Assembly (NCBI GenBank): GCA_020051175.1
Contig: JAGVJJ010000008.1
Span: 1 to 64,000, forward strand
Origin: Bacteroidia bacterium
GTDB lineage: Bacteria; Bacteroidota; Bacteroidia; 2-12-FULL-35-15
Length of the DNA: 64,000 nucleotides
Direction: 5' to 3'
Shown: positions 44,177-53,515 of the stretch, piece by piece
How the letters are laid out: every line of letters begins with the position of its first letter
How positions within the stretch are numbered: the stretch's first letter is position 1
Program-made: the position numbers and the translations under genes
Notes under the pieces: generated by a model
Databases searched by the model: none
Told to the model about the DNA's origin: nothing
What the model saw: only the letters and a program-made list of their open reading frames with translations

Positions 44177-46027
44177 TTAATACACTACCACCTTTTTTAT
44201 TATTCCGGAGTGAGAATTGCGTACACTAATCATGTATAGGCCTTTTCCAAACTGGTTAACATCAATTTGCTTTTGATATTGACCATTGAAGTCGTTAAGC
44301 ATCTCTTTGTACACTACCTGGCCAAGGGTGTTTTTAAGTTCTAATGTGTAAGTAGCCTTTACCGATGTACGGAAGTCGATATTGAAATTTCCTTCGTTCG
44401 GGTTTGGATAAATTGTAAAGAAGCTGTTGTTTGCCAATTGGTCGATTCCCGCATTAATAACACTTACAGCTGTTGATGCAGCAGAAGAGCAACCGGCAAC
44501 TGTTACAACAACGGTATAAGAACCGTTTTGGGTAGCGGTATAGGTTTGACCAGTTGCACCGGAAATAATATTCCCATTCAAGTACCACTGGTTACCTGCA
44601 GATGCATCAGAGGTAAGTGTTGCCCCGTTTTGTGTGATTACAGGTGTTGCAGGTGCTGTGCTTAAAGTTACTGTAATAGCATTGGAAGTAGCGGGGTTGC
44701 CCTGAACACCAGATAAATTGGACGTCATAACGCAGGTTACAACCTGTCCAGATGTTAGAGTTGAAGTAGTATAGGTTGGACTATCTGTACCAACATTTGT
44801 ACCATCCACTTTCCACTGGTAAGAAGGTGTTGTTCCGCCATTGGTAGGAGTTGCTGTAAATGTAAGCGACTCACCAACACATGCTGCGTTGTCACCAGAA
44901 ATGCTTACTCCGGCTGTAAATGTTGAACTAACTGTTACTGCAGCTGATGCTGCAGAAGTACAGCCATTGCTGGTTACAACTACTGTATAGCTTCCTGACT
45001 GTGTGGTTGTATATGTCTGACTTGTTGCGCCTGAAATGATGTTGCCATTTAAGTACCATTGGTTGCCCGTAGCAGAGCTTGATGTCAGCACTGGTCCATT
45101 TTGAGTGATAGTGGGCGTTGGAACGGAGGTTATATTTACTGTAATGGCATTGGAAGTTACTGTTGTGCCACCTGATATTGTTACACCAGATAAGTTTGAA
45201 GTCAATTCACAAGTAACAACCTGACCATTTGTTAATGTTGATGTCGTATAAGTAGGGCTGTTGGTACCAACATTTACTCCATCCACTTTCCACTGGTATG
45301 TGGGGTTTGTACCACCATTGTGAGGGTAAGATGTAAATGTTAAAGATTGCCCTTCACACGCTGGGTTTGTTCCGCTTGTTATTCCAATACTGTCTTTTAC
45401 AACAAAGATTAGGTCAAGGTCATCAAAGAAAACCGTACTGTTTAAAACTGCGTTAGCTCCGTCTTTGGTTGAGCACAAAAGCCATCTTGAATTTGCAACT
45501 GCATTTGACGAGAAATAAGTCAATGGTGCAGAGAAGCGCATATAAGAACTTATTGTAGCGCTAGGAGTATTGAAGGTCGCGCTGGCAATAGAGTCGTTGT
45601 CTCCCCCTGCTCCGTATAGCCTGAAACCCGCAAAGCCATTATCGCCTGCCGCGCCTGGGGTGTATTTATACCATCCAACAATACTGTCAGGACGTAATGT
45701 ATATGGTATCCCACCTGTTATTGAGCCACCGTTTGAACTTGGTAGAGTTCCTGTAGTAGCTACTCCCGGTGCAATCTGCCCAAGAACGGATTTTGAAATA
45801 AGCTTCATGGCATAGCTTCCGTTGTGCATATCAGTTGTTTTAATACAAACAAAAATTTGTGTAATAGCTGTTTGTGAGTTCGGACTGTCCCATCCGGTTG
45901 CAGATTCGTAAGGAGTAAATCCACCTGAGGATGTCCATGTTTCAAAGCCCGCATTTGGTGTTGCCTGCGCCCAAACCCCAGTAATTGAAATCAAAAGGAA
46001 CGATAGTAGAGTAAAAATGTTTTTCAT
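44177..46027 (-). CDS. T9SS-secreted protein with Ig-like repeats
   Basis: The 616-residue protein has a signal peptide, an N-terminal region of about 210 residues that reads like a carbohydrate-binding or PCMD-like jelly-roll, two tandem two-part Ig-like modules of about 165 residues, and a T9SS type A sorting domain. The module marks are TYQWKVDGVNVGT and NQWYLNGNIISGATSQTYT. The sorting domain has IYPNPNEGNFNIDF and GLYMISVRN, ending IIKKVVVY. The cargo would be moved across the outer membrane by PorU/V-type machinery. No enzyme motif was seen. Confidence 0.9.
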   Translation of the reverse strand: MKNIFTLLSFLLISITGVWAQATPNAGFETWTSSGGFTPYESATGWDSPNSQTAITQIFVCIKTTDMHNGSYAMKLISKSVLGQIAPGVATTGTLPSSNGGSITGGIPYTLRPDSIVGWYKYTPGAAGDNGFAGFRLYGAGGDNDSIASATFNTPSATISSYMRFSAPLTYFSSNAVANSRWLLCSTKDGANAVLNSTVFFDDLDLIFVVKDSIGITSGTNPACEGQSLTFTSYPHNGGTNPTYQWKVDGVNVGTNSPTYTTSTLTNGQVVTCELTSNLSGVTISGGTTVTSNAITVNITSVPTPTITQNGPVLTSSSATGNQWYLNGNIISGATSQTYTTTQSGSYTVVVTSNGCTSAASAAVTVSSTFTAGVSISGDNAACVGESLTFTATPTNGGTTPSYQWKVDGTNVGTDSPTYTTSTLTSGQVVTCVMTSNLSGVQGNPATSNAITVTLSTAPATPVITQNGATLTSDASAGNQWYLNGNIISGATGQTYTATQNGSYTVVVTVAGCSSAASTAVSVINAGIDQLANNSFFTIYPNPNEGNFNIDFRTSVKATYTLELKNTLGQVVYKEMLNDFNGQYQKQIDVNQFGKGLYMISVRNSHSGIIKKVVVY

Positions 46028-46054
46028 ATGTCTGTTTATTTAAGTTAATCGAAG

Positions 46055-46086
46055 CAAATATATTAAAACCGGGATGTACGGATCAA
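46055..46086 (-). promoter_or_regulatory. promoter of the T9SS Ig-repeat gene
   Basis: On the minus strand the sequence reads TTG (46086-46084), a 21-base spacer and TATATTTG (46062-46055). This is a full match to the Bacteroidota promoter, 28 bases before the start codon. Confidence 0.6.
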
Positions 46087-46250
46087 GGTGAAATTGGCGA
46101 TGTGTTTTTGGGTGATGAAAAAATGGTTGGCTTATAACTAGTTGTTTGTCAGTGTTTTTGGTTATTGTTTTTTTGGATTTCAAAGTGTTTTTATCGTCTC
46201 AGACTCCTACAGTTACATTAATTTTTGCTCTGAGTAGCGGTCTGTTGCGG

Positions 46251-46282
46251 TTTGTTTTTTATGTAAAATTGGTTTTACTTTG
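46251..46282 (+). promoter_or_regulatory. promoter of the copper-monooxygenase-type gene
   Basis: TTTG (46251-46254), a 21-base spacer and TACTTTG (46276-46282) resemble the Bacteroidota promoter with one base missing in the -7 box. Predicted leader about 63 bases. Confidence 0.45.
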
Positions 46283-46351
46283 TACAAGCACCCTTGTAAT
46301 TTGAGGCTTTTCCGATTAATTGTATGCTCATTAAATTAAATCCGTTGAATC

Positions 46352-47986
46352 ATGAACCCTAAAAAATTACTCTTTCTTGTTGTATGCTTTTCTACCCAGA
46401 TGATGCTGGCGCAAAGCACTTATCAGCAGATATATTCCATATTCCAGGCGAAATGCTCCGGATGCCACAATTCATCCACTAATTCCGGATTGCTTAATCT
46501 GACAGCAGCTCCATCTGCAGTATATGCCGCACTTGTTAATCACGCACCTGTAAACCCGGCAGCTGTCAGCAAAGGTTTTAAACGCATCACTCCAGGCTAT
46601 CCCCACCGTAGTTTTTTATTGCGTAAGGTAAACAACGGCCTGGATCCGGATAATAACATTACAAATGCTGAAGGTGGAATAATGCCTTCTCCACCCAATC
46701 CGTCATTAACAAATTATGAAATTGAGCTCATCCGTCAGTGGGTATTGCATGGTGCCCCTGAAACAGGAACTGTGGTAGATACAGCGCTAATCAATACTTT
46801 TTATACAACCGGTGGCATTAACAGTGTTCCTGTACCATTAACACCGCCTTCACCATCAGCAGGTTTCCAGGTGCATCTGGGAAAGATATTTCTTGCGCCA
46901 TCAACCGAAACAGAAATTTTTATTAAGTATGATTTAAAGCTGGCCGATACGCTTGAAATCAATCGTATTGAGCTTTCTCAGTCTCCTCAGTCGCATCATT
47001 TTGTGATTTACAAATATTTTGAAGGCCACGCTGTTAATTTTCCTGAAGGTTTAAGGGACACAACGATGAACGGGCATGGAAGCACAAATATCCTCACTGC
47101 TTTTTCTCCTCAGACTACAGATCATGTTCTGCCAACAGGAACGGCTTACCTGGTCCCTCAAAATGAAATATGGGATTTGAATTACCACCTTGTAAACTCA
47201 AGTCCCGATTCAATTCTGGCTGCCGAAATCTATTTTAATGTTTATACACAACCAAAGGGTACTGCACAGAAATACATGTACTCCAAGTTCTTCCCCAATT
47301 TTTCAATAGTAATTCCGGCAAACGATTCTGCTTCTTTTACAAGCATTGCAGCGGATACAGCAGAAACCAATATGTGGGATATCTGGATATTGTATACACA
47401 TACGCACCGTTTCGGAGTGGATTACGATGTCTGGAAGCGGAACCCGGATGGTTCTGAGGGACAGCAGGTATATGAAGGTTTTTACAATTTTGAATATACC
47501 TTCGATCAGGGTTATTATGCCTGGGGTGTGGAGGCCCCACAACGCCATTTTGATCCGTTTCTGGAAATAAACCCGAAAGATGGATTGTTGCATAAAGCAA
47601 GCTATTATAACTATACGAATGCACCTGTTTATTTTGGAATGACATCGCAGGATGAAATGATGGTAATGGGGTTCCAGTATACCGAGGGGGCATCACTTGA
47701 CCCTTCAGCAATAAAAGAAAATAAGGCAGATGAGATCTCATTTAAAGTATATCCTAATCCTTTTTCAGGAGAAGCGAAAGTTTCATACGCACTTAAAGGC
47801 ACAGCAGATGTTAAGATAGAAGTTTATAACATGCTTGGTGGAATAGTTGAAACGCTTTTTAATGCGCAACAAACGAAAGGAATTCATACTCATACGTTAC
47901 GTATTGAGCTTCCGGGAATTTATTTCCTGAACGTAACTGTGAATGGAAAGACATATTCTCACAAAATGATTAAAACCAACGAATAG
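46352..47986 (+). CDS. T9SS-exported cytochrome c / copper type II monooxygenase-like protein
   Basis: The 544-residue protein has a signal peptide, one c-type heme site (CSGCH at 35-39, possible axial Met in GGIMPSPP), a two-lobed copper type II ascorbate-dependent monooxygenase-like region, and a T9SS sorting domain (VYPNPFSGEAKVSY, GIYFLNVTVNG). The copper-ligand pattern HH (215-216), H279, HxH (350, 352) and M436 follows the spacing known for peptidylglycine/dopamine monooxygenases. A redox or oxygenase enzyme anchored at the cell surface is inferred; no substrate is known. Confidence 0.82.
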   Translation: MNPKKLLFLVVCFSTQMMLAQSTYQQIYSIFQAKCSGCHNSSTNSGLLNLTAAPSAVYAALVNHAPVNPAAVSKGFKRITPGYPHRSFLLRKVNNGLDPDNNITNAEGGIMPSPPNPSLTNYEIELIRQWVLHGAPETGTVVDTALINTFYTTGGINSVPVPLTPPSPSAGFQVHLGKIFLAPSTETEIFIKYDLKLADTLEINRIELSQSPQSHHFVIYKYFEGHAVNFPEGLRDTTMNGHGSTNILTAFSPQTTDHVLPTGTAYLVPQNEIWDLNYHLVNSSPDSILAAEIYFNVYTQPKGTAQKYMYSKFFPNFSIVIPANDSASFTSIAADTAETNMWDIWILYTHTHRFGVDYDVWKRNPDGSEGQQVYEGFYNFEYTFDQGYYAWGVEAPQRHFDPFLEINPKDGLLHKASYYNYTNAPVYFGMTSQDEMMVMGFQYTEGASLDPSAIKENKADEISFKVYPNPFSGEAKVSYALKGTADVKIEVYNMLGGIVETLFNAQQTKGIHTHTLRIELPGIYFLNVTVNGKTYSHKMIKTNE

Positions 47987-48017
47987 TATTTACTTATTTA
48001 CGGAACCTTTTATGGAG

Positions 48018-48054
48018 AGGCTGCCGAAAGCAATTGTGCTTCCGGTAGCCTTTT
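48018..48054 (+). terminator. terminator after the copper-monooxygenase-type gene
   Basis: AGGCTGCCG pairs with CGGTAGCCT (one G-T pair), with a short inner stem AAGCA/TGCTT in the loop, and ends in TTTT. It also provides the -33 TTG of the next promoter. Confidence 0.7.
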
Positions 48055-48687: not shown

Positions 48688-51600
48688 ATGAAAAAAATCC
48701 TACTAGCTATCACGCTTCTTATTCTGGCGATTGCTTCGGTCGAGGCACAATGGCAATCTGTTGGTCCTTATGGTGGTATTGTTCGCTGCTTTGATACTGT
48801 TGGGGCTACAATCTTTGCCGGCTCTGATGGTGCAGGCGTTCTGAAATCAACGAATAATGGTTCCAGCTGGTCTGGTTCCAGTTCTGGCCTTACAAATTTG
48901 CAGGTTTATGCATTGGCTCACAATGGTTCTGTCATGGTTGCCGGAACGTATGGTGGTGGTGTTTTTAAGTCTACAGATAATGGACTGAACTGGACCGCAA
49001 TCAACAATGGAATTACTAACACTGCCATAAATGCTGTCGCAATCAGTGGAACTACTATATATGCTGGTACTTCCGCTACCAATGGCGGTATGTTCGTATC
49101 GACAGACGGTGGTGCGAGCTGGTCATTATCAGTCAATGGTTTTCCGACAAACGTGTATATCCTGTCTATTACAGTTGATGGTTCTGCCGTTTATGCCGGG
49201 ACAGGAGATGGCGTATTTAAATCAACAGATAATGGCAGCAGTTGGGCCGCAATAAATACAGGGCTTTCAAATCTTTATGTGAATTCTGTTCATGCCAGTG
49301 GAACAACGTTGTATGCGGGAACAAACTCAGGGCTTTTTAAGTCTGTAAATGGTGGTGGCACCTGGTCCTTATTGCATGCCAGTTCTCTTGTAACATCTAT
49401 TGTTGTTAATGGGTCCAGTATTTATACAAGCTGGGGTACCATTGGCAGTGGGGGAGTAGACATGTCTACTAACAATGGTGGCAGCTGGACTACCCCTCAT
49501 AGTGGGAAAGAGGTGTGGGCAGTGGCTTTAGGTGGAGGCATACTATATGCCGGAACAAATGGCGATGGTGTTTATTCTTCTTCCAATAGTGGTGTTTCTT
49601 GGACACAAACAAGTGTGGGTATTAATAATATAAATACGCCAACCATCCTTTTGTCAACTGGTTCTGATATTTATGCAGGCGCTTTTTTAGGTGGTGTATT
49701 TAAAACAACAAACAATGGCGGTAGCTGGGCACAAATGAACTCCGGGCTTACCAATATTGCTGTTCAGGCGCTGGCTGCAAACAATACTCATATTTTTGCA
49801 GGTACAAATGGTTCTGCAGGTGGTGTGTTTTCATCCACTAACAATGGGAGCAGTTGGAACTTAGTAACGAATGGGCTCACAAACAATAATGTTACTTCTT
49901 TTGCAGTTAACGGTACACAAACATTTGCCGGCACATTTGGAGGTGGTGTGTTTCTTTCAACGAATAATGGTGGTTTATGGACTGCTGTCAGTAATGGTTT
50001 GACCAATACATCCGTTCAGTCATTGCTTGTGCATGGAACGGATCTGTATGCAGGCACATTCTATGGCGGGATATTTAAATCAACGGACAATGGGAATAAC
50101 TGGACAGCTTCAAGCAATGGATTGACAAATTCCAATGTGCAGGCTTTCGCTGAATTTGGAAATAAAATTTTTGCGGCAACTTTTGGTGGGATTTTCGTTT
50201 CTGCCGACAATGGCGCGAACTGGTCGCCAATAAATAATGGCCTTACAAGCATATCTGTTATGTCGTTGGCCGTTTCTGATGCATATATATTTGCCGGTAC
50301 CGATGGCGGTGGCGTTTTCTTTTCCTGCGATACAGGCAATACCTGGACAGCGATAAATGATGGAATGTTCAACTATGCCGTAAAATCTGTGGCCATTGCC
50401 GATTCCAATGTGTTTGCTGCAACACACGGTGGAGCGGTTTTTAAACGACCTCTGAGCGAAATTATGCGTGCAGATGTAACTATTGCACAAACAACCGGTT
50501 CAAACCCAACCTGCGAAAATGCTGAAGTTGTGTTTACTGCTACGCCTTATTGCGGTGGTTGCCCGGCAAGCTACCAATGGAAAGTGAATGGCAATAACGT
50601 AGGCTCGGACACATCCGTATACACCACTTCATCACTTACCAACGGACAAGTGGTTACCTGTGTTATGACTTCCAATCTTCCGGGTATATACAACAGTCCT
50701 GCAACCTCAAATGCAATAACGGTTTTAGTAATTCCTGCACCACCAACTCCAACTATATCGCAGAATGGTACAACGCTTACATCAAGCTCAGCCAGCGGCA
50801 ACCAATGGTATCTGAATGGTGTGATAATTGCCGGGGCAACAAACCAGAATTATACAATCAATCAGAACGGGAACTATACTGTGATTACTACTGTTGGGGG
50901 CTGTTCTTCCGACACATCCGCAGTACTTATAATAAACACTGCATTCACTGCAGGTGTTTCCATTGCGCAAACAGGAGGTACCAATCCTACCTGTGCCGGG
51001 CAATCTGTAACTTTTACGGCAACGCCTGTTAACGGTGGCTCTTCACCTTCTTATTTGTGGTTGCTGAATGGTTCGCCAGTTGGGACGGACAGCCCTACGT
51101 ACAGCACCACGACAATTGTTTCCGGTGATATCGTTTCCTGCCTTTTGACATCCAGTATGATGGGTGTTTCGGGTAATCCAGCAACCTCTAATGACCTTTT
51201 TGTAACTGTTAATACTACGCCTTCTGCACCTACTATTGCCCAGAGCGGAGCAACACTTACCTCCAGTGTATCCAGTGGAAATCAATGGTATTTAAATGGC
51301 AACCTGATTCCTGGTGCAACGGCACAGATTTATACCGCCACTCAAAACGGAACATATACAGTAGCCGTTACAAGCAATGGCTGTACTTCTGCTGCATCTT
51401 CTCCTGTTACAGTCAGTAATCTTGTTAGTGTTGGTGTAACAATTGCAATTACTTCGGGCGCCAATCCTACCTGTGCAGGTTCTTCGTTAACGTTTACTGC
51501 AACAGCAACCAATGGTGGTACAAACCCTGTATACCAATGGCAGGTAGATGGTGTAAATACAGGTACAAATAGTGCTACGTATACTACGTCATCGTTAACA

Positions 51601-52650
51601 AACGGACAAATTGTAACCTGCGTTGTTACGTCCAATATGCTGGGTGTCACCAATAATCCGGCTACTTCCAATGCCATTACTATTACTATCAGCAATACTC
51701 CAACACCAACAATTACGCAAAGTGGGCTTGTGCTTACCTCCAGTGCAACCACCGGTAACCAGTGGTACTTGAATGGGAATATTATTTCTGGCGCAACCAG
51801 CCAAACGTATACGATCACACAGAATGGATCTTATACCGTAATTTCAACCGTGAACGGTTGTGCCTCTGCTGCTTCCGCTACGTTGGTAGATAACAGTTCA
51901 TTTGTAGCAAGTGTTACAATAGCATTGACTACAGGTTCTAACCCTGCATGTTCCGGTGATACACTTACATTCACAGCAACTCCTGTGAATGGTGGAACTG
52001 TTCCGGGGTATCAGTGGCAGCTCAATGGTGCAAATGTGGGTACCAATACTGCTGCGTATAGTTCTTCTGCTTTGGCAACAGGTGATGTAATTACATGTAT
52101 GCTCATCTCAAATATGCCTGCTGTTGCCGGCAACCCGGCTATGTCCAATTCGATTACAATGACTGTAAATGCAGCGCCTCCTGTGCCTGTTATTACCCAG
52201 AGCGGAACGTTGTTGTCCTCAAGTGCAGGAAGTGGAAATCAGTGGTTTCTGGATGGCAGTCCGCTTCCTGATGCTTTTGGTTCGGCTTATACGGCAGCAG
52301 AGAATGGTTCGTATACAGTGGTTGTAACGGTTAATGGCTGTTCTTCTGTATCAGCTCCGTTTGATGTCGTAAATATTAGTGTGGAAGAATTGTTTGCCGA
52401 TGCTTCCGTATTGCTTTATCCAAACCCGAATGAAGGCCGCTTTACTTTGTTAAGTAATATAGATTTTAAAGAGGAGTTTGATATAGATATTAAAAATGCG
52501 CTTGGCCAGCACATTTACAGTGGTATATTAAATGCCCGCAATGGCAATAATAAAAAGCAAATTGATATAAGCTCCTTTGGAAAGGGTTTTTACCTCATGA
52601 CATTGCGTGGGCAGGGAAAAGAGTTGGTAAAACGGATTGTTGTTTATTAG
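48688..52650 (+). CDS. giant T9SS protein: BNR-like propellers plus Ig-like repeats
   Basis: The 1320-residue protein has a signal peptide, about 14 BNR/sortilin-type repeats over residues 25-595 with the pattern YAGTxGGGVFKSTDNGxxW, four two-part Ig-like modules of about 160 residues each (TNPTCAGQ, YQWxVDG, NQWYLNGN) over 600-1240, and a T9SS sorting domain (YPNPNEGRFTLL, ending VKRIVVY). The Ig-like modules are close in sequence to those of the 44177-46027 gene. A secreted surface adhesin or glycan-binding protein is likely. A catalytic role as sialidase is not supported: the RIP motif and arginine triad are not seen. Confidence 0.88.
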   Translation: MKKILLAITLLILAIASVEAQWQSVGPYGGIVRCFDTVGATIFAGSDGAGVLKSTNNGSSWSGSSSGLTNLQVYALAHNGSVMVAGTYGGGVFKSTDNGLNWTAINNGITNTAINAVAISGTTIYAGTSATNGGMFVSTDGGASWSLSVNGFPTNVYILSITVDGSAVYAGTGDGVFKSTDNGSSWAAINTGLSNLYVNSVHASGTTLYAGTNSGLFKSVNGGGTWSLLHASSLVTSIVVNGSSIYTSWGTIGSGGVDMSTNNGGSWTTPHSGKEVWAVALGGGILYAGTNGDGVYSSSNSGVSWTQTSVGINNINTPTILLSTGSDIYAGAFLGGVFKTTNNGGSWAQMNSGLTNIAVQALAANNTHIFAGTNGSAGGVFSSTNNGSSWNLVTNGLTNNNVTSFAVNGTQTFAGTFGGGVFLSTNNGGLWTAVSNGLTNTSVQSLLVHGTDLYAGTFYGGIFKSTDNGNNWTASSNGLTNSNVQAFAEFGNKIFAATFGGIFVSADNGANWSPINNGLTSISVMSLAVSDAYIFAGTDGGGVFFSCDTGNTWTAINDGMFNYAVKSVAIADSNVFAATHGGAVFKRPLSEIMRADVTIAQTTGSNPTCENAEVVFTATPYCGGCPASYQWKVNGNNVGSDTSVYTTSSLTNGQVVTCVMTSNLPGIYNSPATSNAITVLVIPAPPTPTISQNGTTLTSSSASGNQWYLNGVIIAGATNQNYTINQNGNYTVITTVGGCSSDTSAVLIINTAFTAGVSIAQTGGTNPTCAGQSVTFTATPVNGGSSPSYLWLLNGSPVGTDSPTYSTTTIVSGDIVSCLLTSSMMGVSGNPATSNDLFVTVNTTPSAPTIAQSGATLTSSVSSGNQWYLNGNLIPGATAQIYTATQNGTYTVAVTSNGCTSAASSPVTVSNLVSVGVTIAITSGANPTCAGSSLTFTATATNGGTNPVYQWQVDGVNTGTNSATYTTSSLTNGQIVTCVVTSNMLGVTNNPATSNAITITISNTPTPTITQSGLVLTSSATTGNQWYLNGNIISGATSQTYTITQNGSYTVISTVNGCASAASATLVDNSSFVASVTIALTTGSNPACSGDTLTFTATPVNGGTVPGYQWQLNGANVGTNTAAYSSSALATGDVITCMLISNMPAVAGNPAMSNSITMTVNAAPPVPVITQSGTLLSSSAGSGNQWFLDGSPLPDAFGSAYTAAENGSYTVVVTVNGCSSVSAPFDVVNISVEELFADASVLLYPNPNEGRFTLLSNIDFKEEFDIDIKNALGQHIYSGILNARNGNNKKQIDISSFGKGFYLMTLRGQGKELVKRIVVY

Positions 52651-52747: not shown

Positions 52748-53515
52748 TTATTTAGAAGCCGCTGTAAACAAAGATTCCGCAGTATCCCAGTTCACAACGT
52801 TCCACCAGGAAGTAATATAATCGGCACGTTTATTCTGGTTTTTTAAATAGTAGGCGTGTTCCCATACATCCAGTGCCAAAACAGGCTTTCCTTTTGTTTC
52901 AATCGTGCTGAGGTTCATCAAAGGGTTATCCTGGTTGGGGGTAGAAGTAATGGCCAGTTTTCCGTTGTTATATACCAGCCAGGCCCACCCGGAGCCAAAG
53001 CGAGTCATGGCACTTTCTGTGAATTTCTTTTTGAATTCATCAAAAGAACCAAATGATGCATTGATTGCAGTTGCTAGTTTGCCTTTGGGTTGCCCTCCAC
53101 CATTGGGTTTCATTAATATCCAGAACAGGGAATGGTTATAATGCCCGCCTGCATTGTTGCGAACCGCAGCCGGCAGCTTTTCTACCTTTTCAAAAATAGA
53201 TTCAAATGTATATGTCCCTCCCAATACGCTGCTGTCAACTGTTTCAAGTGCTTTGTTAAGATTGGTAACGTAGGCCTGGTGATGTTTGCCATGATGTATT
53301 TCCATCGTCAGCTTATCAATATGGGGCTCTAACGCATCATAATTGTATGGCAATACGGAAAGTGTAAACTTATCACCGTCAGGTAAAAAATAATTGGGAG
53401 GAACAACTGTACTTCCAGCCAAAGCAATATTGCTTAAGCTTGTTGCAGCAATGGTACCTAGTGCAAGCGTTGCCGATTGCTTCAGGAAATCCCTTCTTGT
53501 CTCATTTTTTTTCAT
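52748..53515 (-). CDS. Exported Fe/Mn superoxide dismutase (Tat-type signal)
   Basis: This superoxide dismutase has 255 residues, of which the first 34 form a Tat signal: RRDFLKQ followed by a hydrophobic stretch ending near ALAGS. The body shows [31 protein letters not shown] and [13 protein letters not shown], covering the four metal ligands. The metal (Fe or Mn) cannot be decided. It would detoxify superoxide in the periplasm. It is 22 bases upstream-ending of the biotin carrier gene on the same strand. Confidence 0.93.

Follow-up and report, generated by a model that had tools for sequence, protein, structure and literature searches.

A predicted T9SS-exported, heme c-fused member of the PHM/DBH dicopper monooxygenase superfamily in Bacteroidia

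Does the Bacteroidia gene analysed here encode a surface copper monooxygenase that carries its own heme, and how unusual would such a protein be? The gene lies in a stretch of 64,000 nucleotides (the window), and a preliminary description made from the sequence had proposed that its product joins a cytochrome c, a copper type II monooxygenase and a T9SS sorting domain in one chain, and had taken this combination to be out of the ordinary. Characterised PHM/DBM-type enzymes are animal secretory enzymes. In the table of a 2020 survey, PHM and DBM appear as copper families of eukaryotes only (PMC7435645).

The reading frame starts with ATG, is open throughout and specifies the four-part protein set out in Table 1. 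The T9SS tail recognised in the preliminary description scores 52.6 bits against TIGR04183 (cut-off 23) and 39.8 bits against PF18962 (cut-off 27), well inside both models. The genome encodes the SprA translocon (2630 bits) and two PF01578 proteins of cytochrome c assembly; heme could therefore be attached and the T9SS used for export, and the protein is predicted to be exported to or beyond the outer membrane. Apart from the two heme cysteines and a third within the signal peptide, the chain has none that could form disulfides. Because a strong hairpin with a T-rich tail follows closely on the stop codon, the oxygenase gene is probably transcribed alone, as a single-gene transcript.

Table 1. 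Positions in the window of the oxygenase gene, its predicted domains and ligands, and its flanking features
Feature	Position	Strand	Basis or remark
Divergent partner, T9SS protein of 616 aa bearing a PCMD domain and PKD/Ig-like repeats	44177..46027	-	PF13201 1.3e-5; PF18962 1.1e-13
Intergenic region of the divergent pair, 324 bp	46028..46351	.	Candidate common regulatory region
Whole gene	46352..47986	+	Encodes 544 aa; signal peptide, then heme c domain, then core like the type II dicopper monooxygenases, then T9SS sorting domain
Signal peptide, residues 1-21, MNPKKLLFLVVCFSTQMMLAQ	46352..46414	+	Assigned by eye from sequence
N-terminal c-type cytochrome-like domain, residues 22-140	46415..46771	+	Weak TIGR03806 and sub-cut-off Cytochrome_CBB3 matches; CXXCH
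Heme attachment motif C35-S-G-C38-H39	46454..46468	+	CXXCH in 71/71 same-architecture members
M111, candidate sixth (axial) heme ligand, G-x-x-M-P motif	46682..46684	+	M in 64/72 members; MP conserved in wider family
Copper monooxygenase-like core, residues 160-447	46829..47692	+	Family profile, alignment, PDB profile search, profile-profile alignment
H215-H216, candidate CuH ligands	46994..46999	+	Invariant in family
H279, third candidate CuH ligand	47186..47188	+	Invariant; 'DLNxHyvN' aligned with PHM 'VLQVHYGD'
H350-T-H352, candidate CuM ligands	47399..47407	+	Invariant; aligned with HTH of DBH and PHM
M436, candidate CuM thioether ligand, DEM motif	47657..47659	+	Invariant; aligned with EM/DEM of DBH and PHM
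T9SS type A sorting domain, residues 466-541	47747..47974	+	TIGR04183 3.3e-14; PF18962 5.7e-10
Terminator-like hairpin, then T-rich sequence	48015..48054	+	-25.6 kcal/mol, z=-6.1; 29 bp past stop codon

All the residues that had been singled out (C35, C38 and H39 for heme; H215, H216, H279, H350, H352 and M436 for copper) lie at the positions given for them. A 28-sequence family alignment, in which identity to the window protein ranges from 23 to 60%, contains 16 invariant columns, and all six predicted copper ligands are among them; six positions drawn at random from 281 would all be invariant with a chance of about 1e-8. When 73 proteins of the same architecture were compared, the HH pair, the third histidine and HxH were each found in 73/73, and the methionine in 71/71, two sequences being cut by contig ends. 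The suggestion that close homologues might lack the HxH/M pair is contradicted by these counts. The PHM-like spacing of the ligands was borne out, with one local difference. HH and HxH are separated by 135 residues in the window protein and in most relatives, as they are in PHM. From HxH to M most homologues have a distance of exactly 72; in the clade of the window protein it is 84–87, owing to an insert of about 13 residues. Structure prediction from two-sequence alignments gave pLDDT values of 35.1 for the full protein and 29.6 for the core.

The kinship of the copper core was not apparent from standard models. The window protein has no match to the copper monooxygenase domains PF01082 or PF03712 in Pfam, and neither Pfam nor NCBIfam detects the core; this bacterial subfamily stands outside their current models. 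Most of the relatives tested do match PF03712 (Cu2_monoox_C), and L035, L037, L041, L043, L052 and L056 score above its cut-off. A profile built from bacterial sequences only was run over the entire PDB with an E limit of 10 and retrieved 12 sequences, all of them DBH or PHM, with E=5.7e-4 for DBH and 0.04–1 for the PHM entries. In these alignments the HTH and EM/DEM motifs each fall on their counterparts, and DLNxH falls on VLQVH of PHM, its histidine on H172. The matches are weak and cover mainly the CuM half and the region around H172, not HH. Breadth of the profile was needed: a narrow nine-sequence profile found only two chance matches in the PDB (E around 0.07), and phmmer searches of the PDB with single sequences gave no match for the window protein and one chance match for its paralogue L001.

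Profile–profile alignment of the subfamily with a PF03712-positive sister family gave a probability of 99.8% (E=5e-27), with all ligand motifs in register and HH covered, compared with 0.1–0.4% for five column-shuffled controls. Members of the sister family also have sub-threshold matches to PF01082 (Cu2_monooxygen, N-terminal) across the HH region. As the window protein fails the Pfam cut-off though several relatives pass that of PF03712, we class it, by sequence, as a divergent member of the type II dicopper monooxygenase superfamily and not as a member of PF03712 as modelled.

The N-terminal domain is more loosely defined. It matches TIGR03806 (SO2930-family diheme cytochrome) weakly, with E=7.6e-4 (5.1e-5 for relative L035), and its match to Cytochrome_CBB3 (PF13442; E=0.038) reaches 14.8 bits against a curated cut-off of 27, for which reason we call the domain only cytochrome c-like. 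Throughout the family it is less conserved than the copper part. CXXCH is kept in all 71 of the 73 same-architecture proteins that are not cut by contig ends, and the eight members lacking the axial methionine have C, H, V, A or S in its place. In the wider family the MP motif is kept and the heme motif may be CXXCH, CX3CH or CX4CH. The longer forms, CX4CH (CATSGCH) and CX3CH (CAGACH), were seen with MP retained in L036–L038, L040, L043 and L052–L056 and in L046, L048 and L051. Such spacing variants within one homologous domain would form a natural series in which to study CcsBA-type heme attachment.

Homologues occur both with and without the cytochrome part. Most carry a heme motif; the family-level relatives L045 and L112 have none and yet keep all six copper ligands, L045 being without the heme domain. 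Eight orthologues, from seven of the 36 genomes of the order (L003–L009) and a Sphingobacteriales contig (L032), share 44–57% identity over their full length and retain CXXCH, the six copper ligands and the T9SS tail. In a class-wide search the same architecture was found in many Bacteroidia, in about 46 of 395 genomes at E < 1e-100, and a PNP-type T9SS tail is present in 70/73 same-architecture members. Relatives of residues 160–447 were detected by profile in 22/395 Bacteroidota genomes; most of these distant relatives are lipoproteins by their lipobox, without the T9SS tail, although L047, L049 and L050 end in a C-terminal tail as long as the T9SS tail (confirmed for L047). Scanning of viral contigs confirmed no homologue, and a search of plasmids found none. 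Six genomes (G432, G472, G502, G529, G579 and G602) carry the oxygenase gene three to four times each, tandem pairs included, which suggests expansion and possible substrate diversification.

The PF03712 family is present in 35/395 Bacteroidota genomes. Since the paralogue L001, encoded in the same genome as the window protein (PF03712, 7.6e-8), and almost all other members of that family also start with a CXXCH domain, the cytochrome–copper fusion is the standard design in bacteria, found across Bacteroidota in no fewer than two subfamilies, with a T9SS tail in several cases. The preliminary description is supported on the parts of the fusion (heme c, PHM/DBM-type copper core and T9SS tail) and on its kinship, and needs correcting where it treats the combination as unusual: bacterial members are normally built in this way, and some Bacteroidia genomes encode several of them. 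We found no description of a bacterial PHM-type/cytochrome fusion in the open-access literature. As far as we could find, then, this is a widespread bacterial family undescribed there, and the surprise lies in the family and not in the single protein. A family of such breadth in bacteria, if it has working copper sites and its own heme, would revise the tabulation of PHM and DBM as eukaryote-only.

Members of the PF03712 family with an N-terminal cytochrome c (L087, L088 and L001) have the same order of motifs, CXXCH followed by HH, H, HxH and M, and L087 and L088 end, as the window protein does, in a T9SS tail. The two families are nevertheless well separated. Their cores are only 18% identical, HMHLLG and W-D-F-x-W-Q of the sister family stand against HTHRFG and DLNxHxxN of the window family, and MP follows the first heme cysteine by 36 residues in the shorter sister heme domain but by 72–82 in the window family; Pfam recognises the sister family and not the window protein. 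PHM shares with the window protein the ligand set, the spacing and the DEM motif; the window protein differs in being bacterial, in lacking the anchoring residues and disulfide cysteines, and in its added heme domain and T9SS tail. DBH, the best PDB match of the family profile, likewise has His3 and His2Met sites. Its accessory N-terminal domain has a DOMON fold like that of the CDH cytochrome (PMC4846438), but this shares no sequence relationship with the heme c domain of the window protein, and DBH uses ascorbate; the window protein is without the dimerization domain and disulfides of DBH. With cytochrome-fed LPMOs (Cbp2D/CjX183; CDH-LPMO) the likeness is one of function only, a c-type cytochrome feeding an extracellular copper monooxygenase (PMC8981238). 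LPMOs have a different copper fold and site, the single-copper histidine brace, and are not homologous to the window protein.

In DBH and PHM, CuH serves electron transfer and CuM activates O2, with two ascorbates consumed per turnover, and the two sites of DBH are described as His3 (CuH) and His2Met (PMC4846438). A fused c-type cytochrome domain can reduce a copper LPMO and replace ascorbate (PMC8981238). By analogy with these systems, the arrangement of parts, the conservation of the ligands, the kinship of the family, the T9SS signal, the heme motif and the PCMD neighbour (below), all of which are read from sequence, are probably best explained by an exported, heme c-fused, uncoupled dicopper (type II copper) monooxygenase in a bacterial subfamily of the PHM/DBH superfamily. 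After Sec export, heme would be attached in the periplasm and the T9SS would deliver the protein to the outer membrane or past it. The His/Met heme would accept single electrons from an external or periplasmic donor and pass them, in place of ascorbate, to copper held at CuH (H215, H216 and H279), while CuM (H350, H352 and M436) would bind and activate O2 and hydroxylate an extracellular substrate at a C–H bond. The simplest model that we can infer runs from heme c through CuH and CuM-O2 to the hydroxylated substrate; it would make the family a natural system for CuH reduction without ascorbate, and one in which a new hydroxylation activity outside the cell may be found.

The chief alternative accepts the copper core as a real oxygenase but makes the heme domain a docking, sensing or vestigial module, the enzyme being fed by small diffusible reductants. 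The weaker conservation of the axial methionine (replaced in 8/72 members) and the relatives that keep six copper ligands without a heme motif (L045 and L112) would be compatible with a heme domain that is optional or has no redox role, and the CX3CH and CX4CH motifs point the same way. On the other side, CXXCH is found in 71/71 proteins of the window's clade, and recurrence of the fusion in both bacterial subfamilies is hard to explain if the domain is vestigial. We regard this alternative as unlikely, if the most serious of those considered, and retain the heme as the probable electron donor.

Most neighbourhoods of the oxygenase loci are unconserved, and one neighbour alone survived testing: a T9SS gene with a PCMD-like domain. 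A general operon was rejected on that ground and because the gene has its own terminator-like hairpin. Of the 25 loci of the clade, 8, including the window and drawn from several families, have the PCMD-like gene directly beside that of the oxygenase. Nine of the 11 PCMD-like genes in the 25 loci are adjacent to the oxygenase gene (hypergeometric P=6e-7, which somewhat overstates independence, three of the eight PCMD-adjacent loci being from one genus), and there are only 3–10 PCMD-like T9SS genes per genome. The pair is divergent in the window and in most of the other loci; at two loci a PCMD gene also lies 40 bp downstream on the same strand. This conserved, usually divergent PCMD/T9SS neighbour is new here, and offers a concrete first place for a substrate search.

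PCMD is putatively carbohydrate-related. The oxygenase might then be a glycan-active oxidase, a PHM-fold counterpart of the cytochrome-fed LPMOs that acts with the PCMD protein on extracellular polysaccharide, and the adjacency of the two genes and a weak match of the partner profile to a PDB 'hypothetical glycoside hydrolase' (E=0.007) are in its favour. Against it, the carbohydrate role of PCMD is itself putative, 17/25 loci have no PCMD neighbour, and the loci examined, whose neighbours were sampled only, showed no recognisable glycoside hydrolase or SusCD neighbourhood. We think this reading rather improbable, and the fuller proposal, a class of heme c-fed PHM-type surface oxygenases oxidising glycans with a divergent PCMD protein, more doubtful again; if true, it would represent a second, non-LPMO solution for copper-based oxidative attack on polysaccharides in Bacteroidota. 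A glycan-related substrate is possible, and for the favoured dicopper monooxygenase the PCMD neighbour is a weak hint to that effect.

A chance occurrence of the copper-like motif in some unrelated beta-sandwich protein, as the want of Pfam and phmmer PDB matches for the window protein might suggest, is very improbable and already largely refuted, since the six ligands are invariant down to about 23% identity, the PDB profile search yields DBH and PHM only and the sister family falls inside PF03712.

PHM holds the C-terminus of its peptide substrate with an Arg two residues before HxH, an Asn at M+2 and a Tyr at M+4, as seen at these positions in PHM structures. The window protein has Y348, V438 and G440 respectively; across the 73 members the first position is occupied by S, Y, M, T, Q, G, K or N, never R, and M+2 is L, V, I or A throughout. 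As the anchoring residues are absent, peptide amidation is unlikely, and the window protein is probably not a peptide amidase, its likeness to PHM being one of copper chemistry and not of substrate. A bacterial peptidylglycine amidating enzyme with true PHM function, to which homology, ligand spacing and one locus with a propeller gene reminiscent of PAL might otherwise point, is on these grounds rejected as scarcely credible. At that locus, a single case, a T9SS-tailed NHL/SGL beta-propeller resembling PAL, the partner of PHM, is encoded directly downstream of an oxygenase homologue (L179:7504-8919).

Two further genes of the window are of note. On the forward strand, 48688-52650 encodes a T9SS protein of 1320 aa, in which BNR/photosystem-stability-type repeats precede PKD/Ig-like repeats resembling those of the divergent PCMD gene. 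On the reverse strand, about 4.8 kb from the oxygenase gene, 52748-53515 encodes an apparently exported protein like the Fe/Mn superoxide dismutases, whose leader (RRDFLKQSA) is of the twin-arginine type, and a superoxide dismutase gene is also present in loci L173 and L174.
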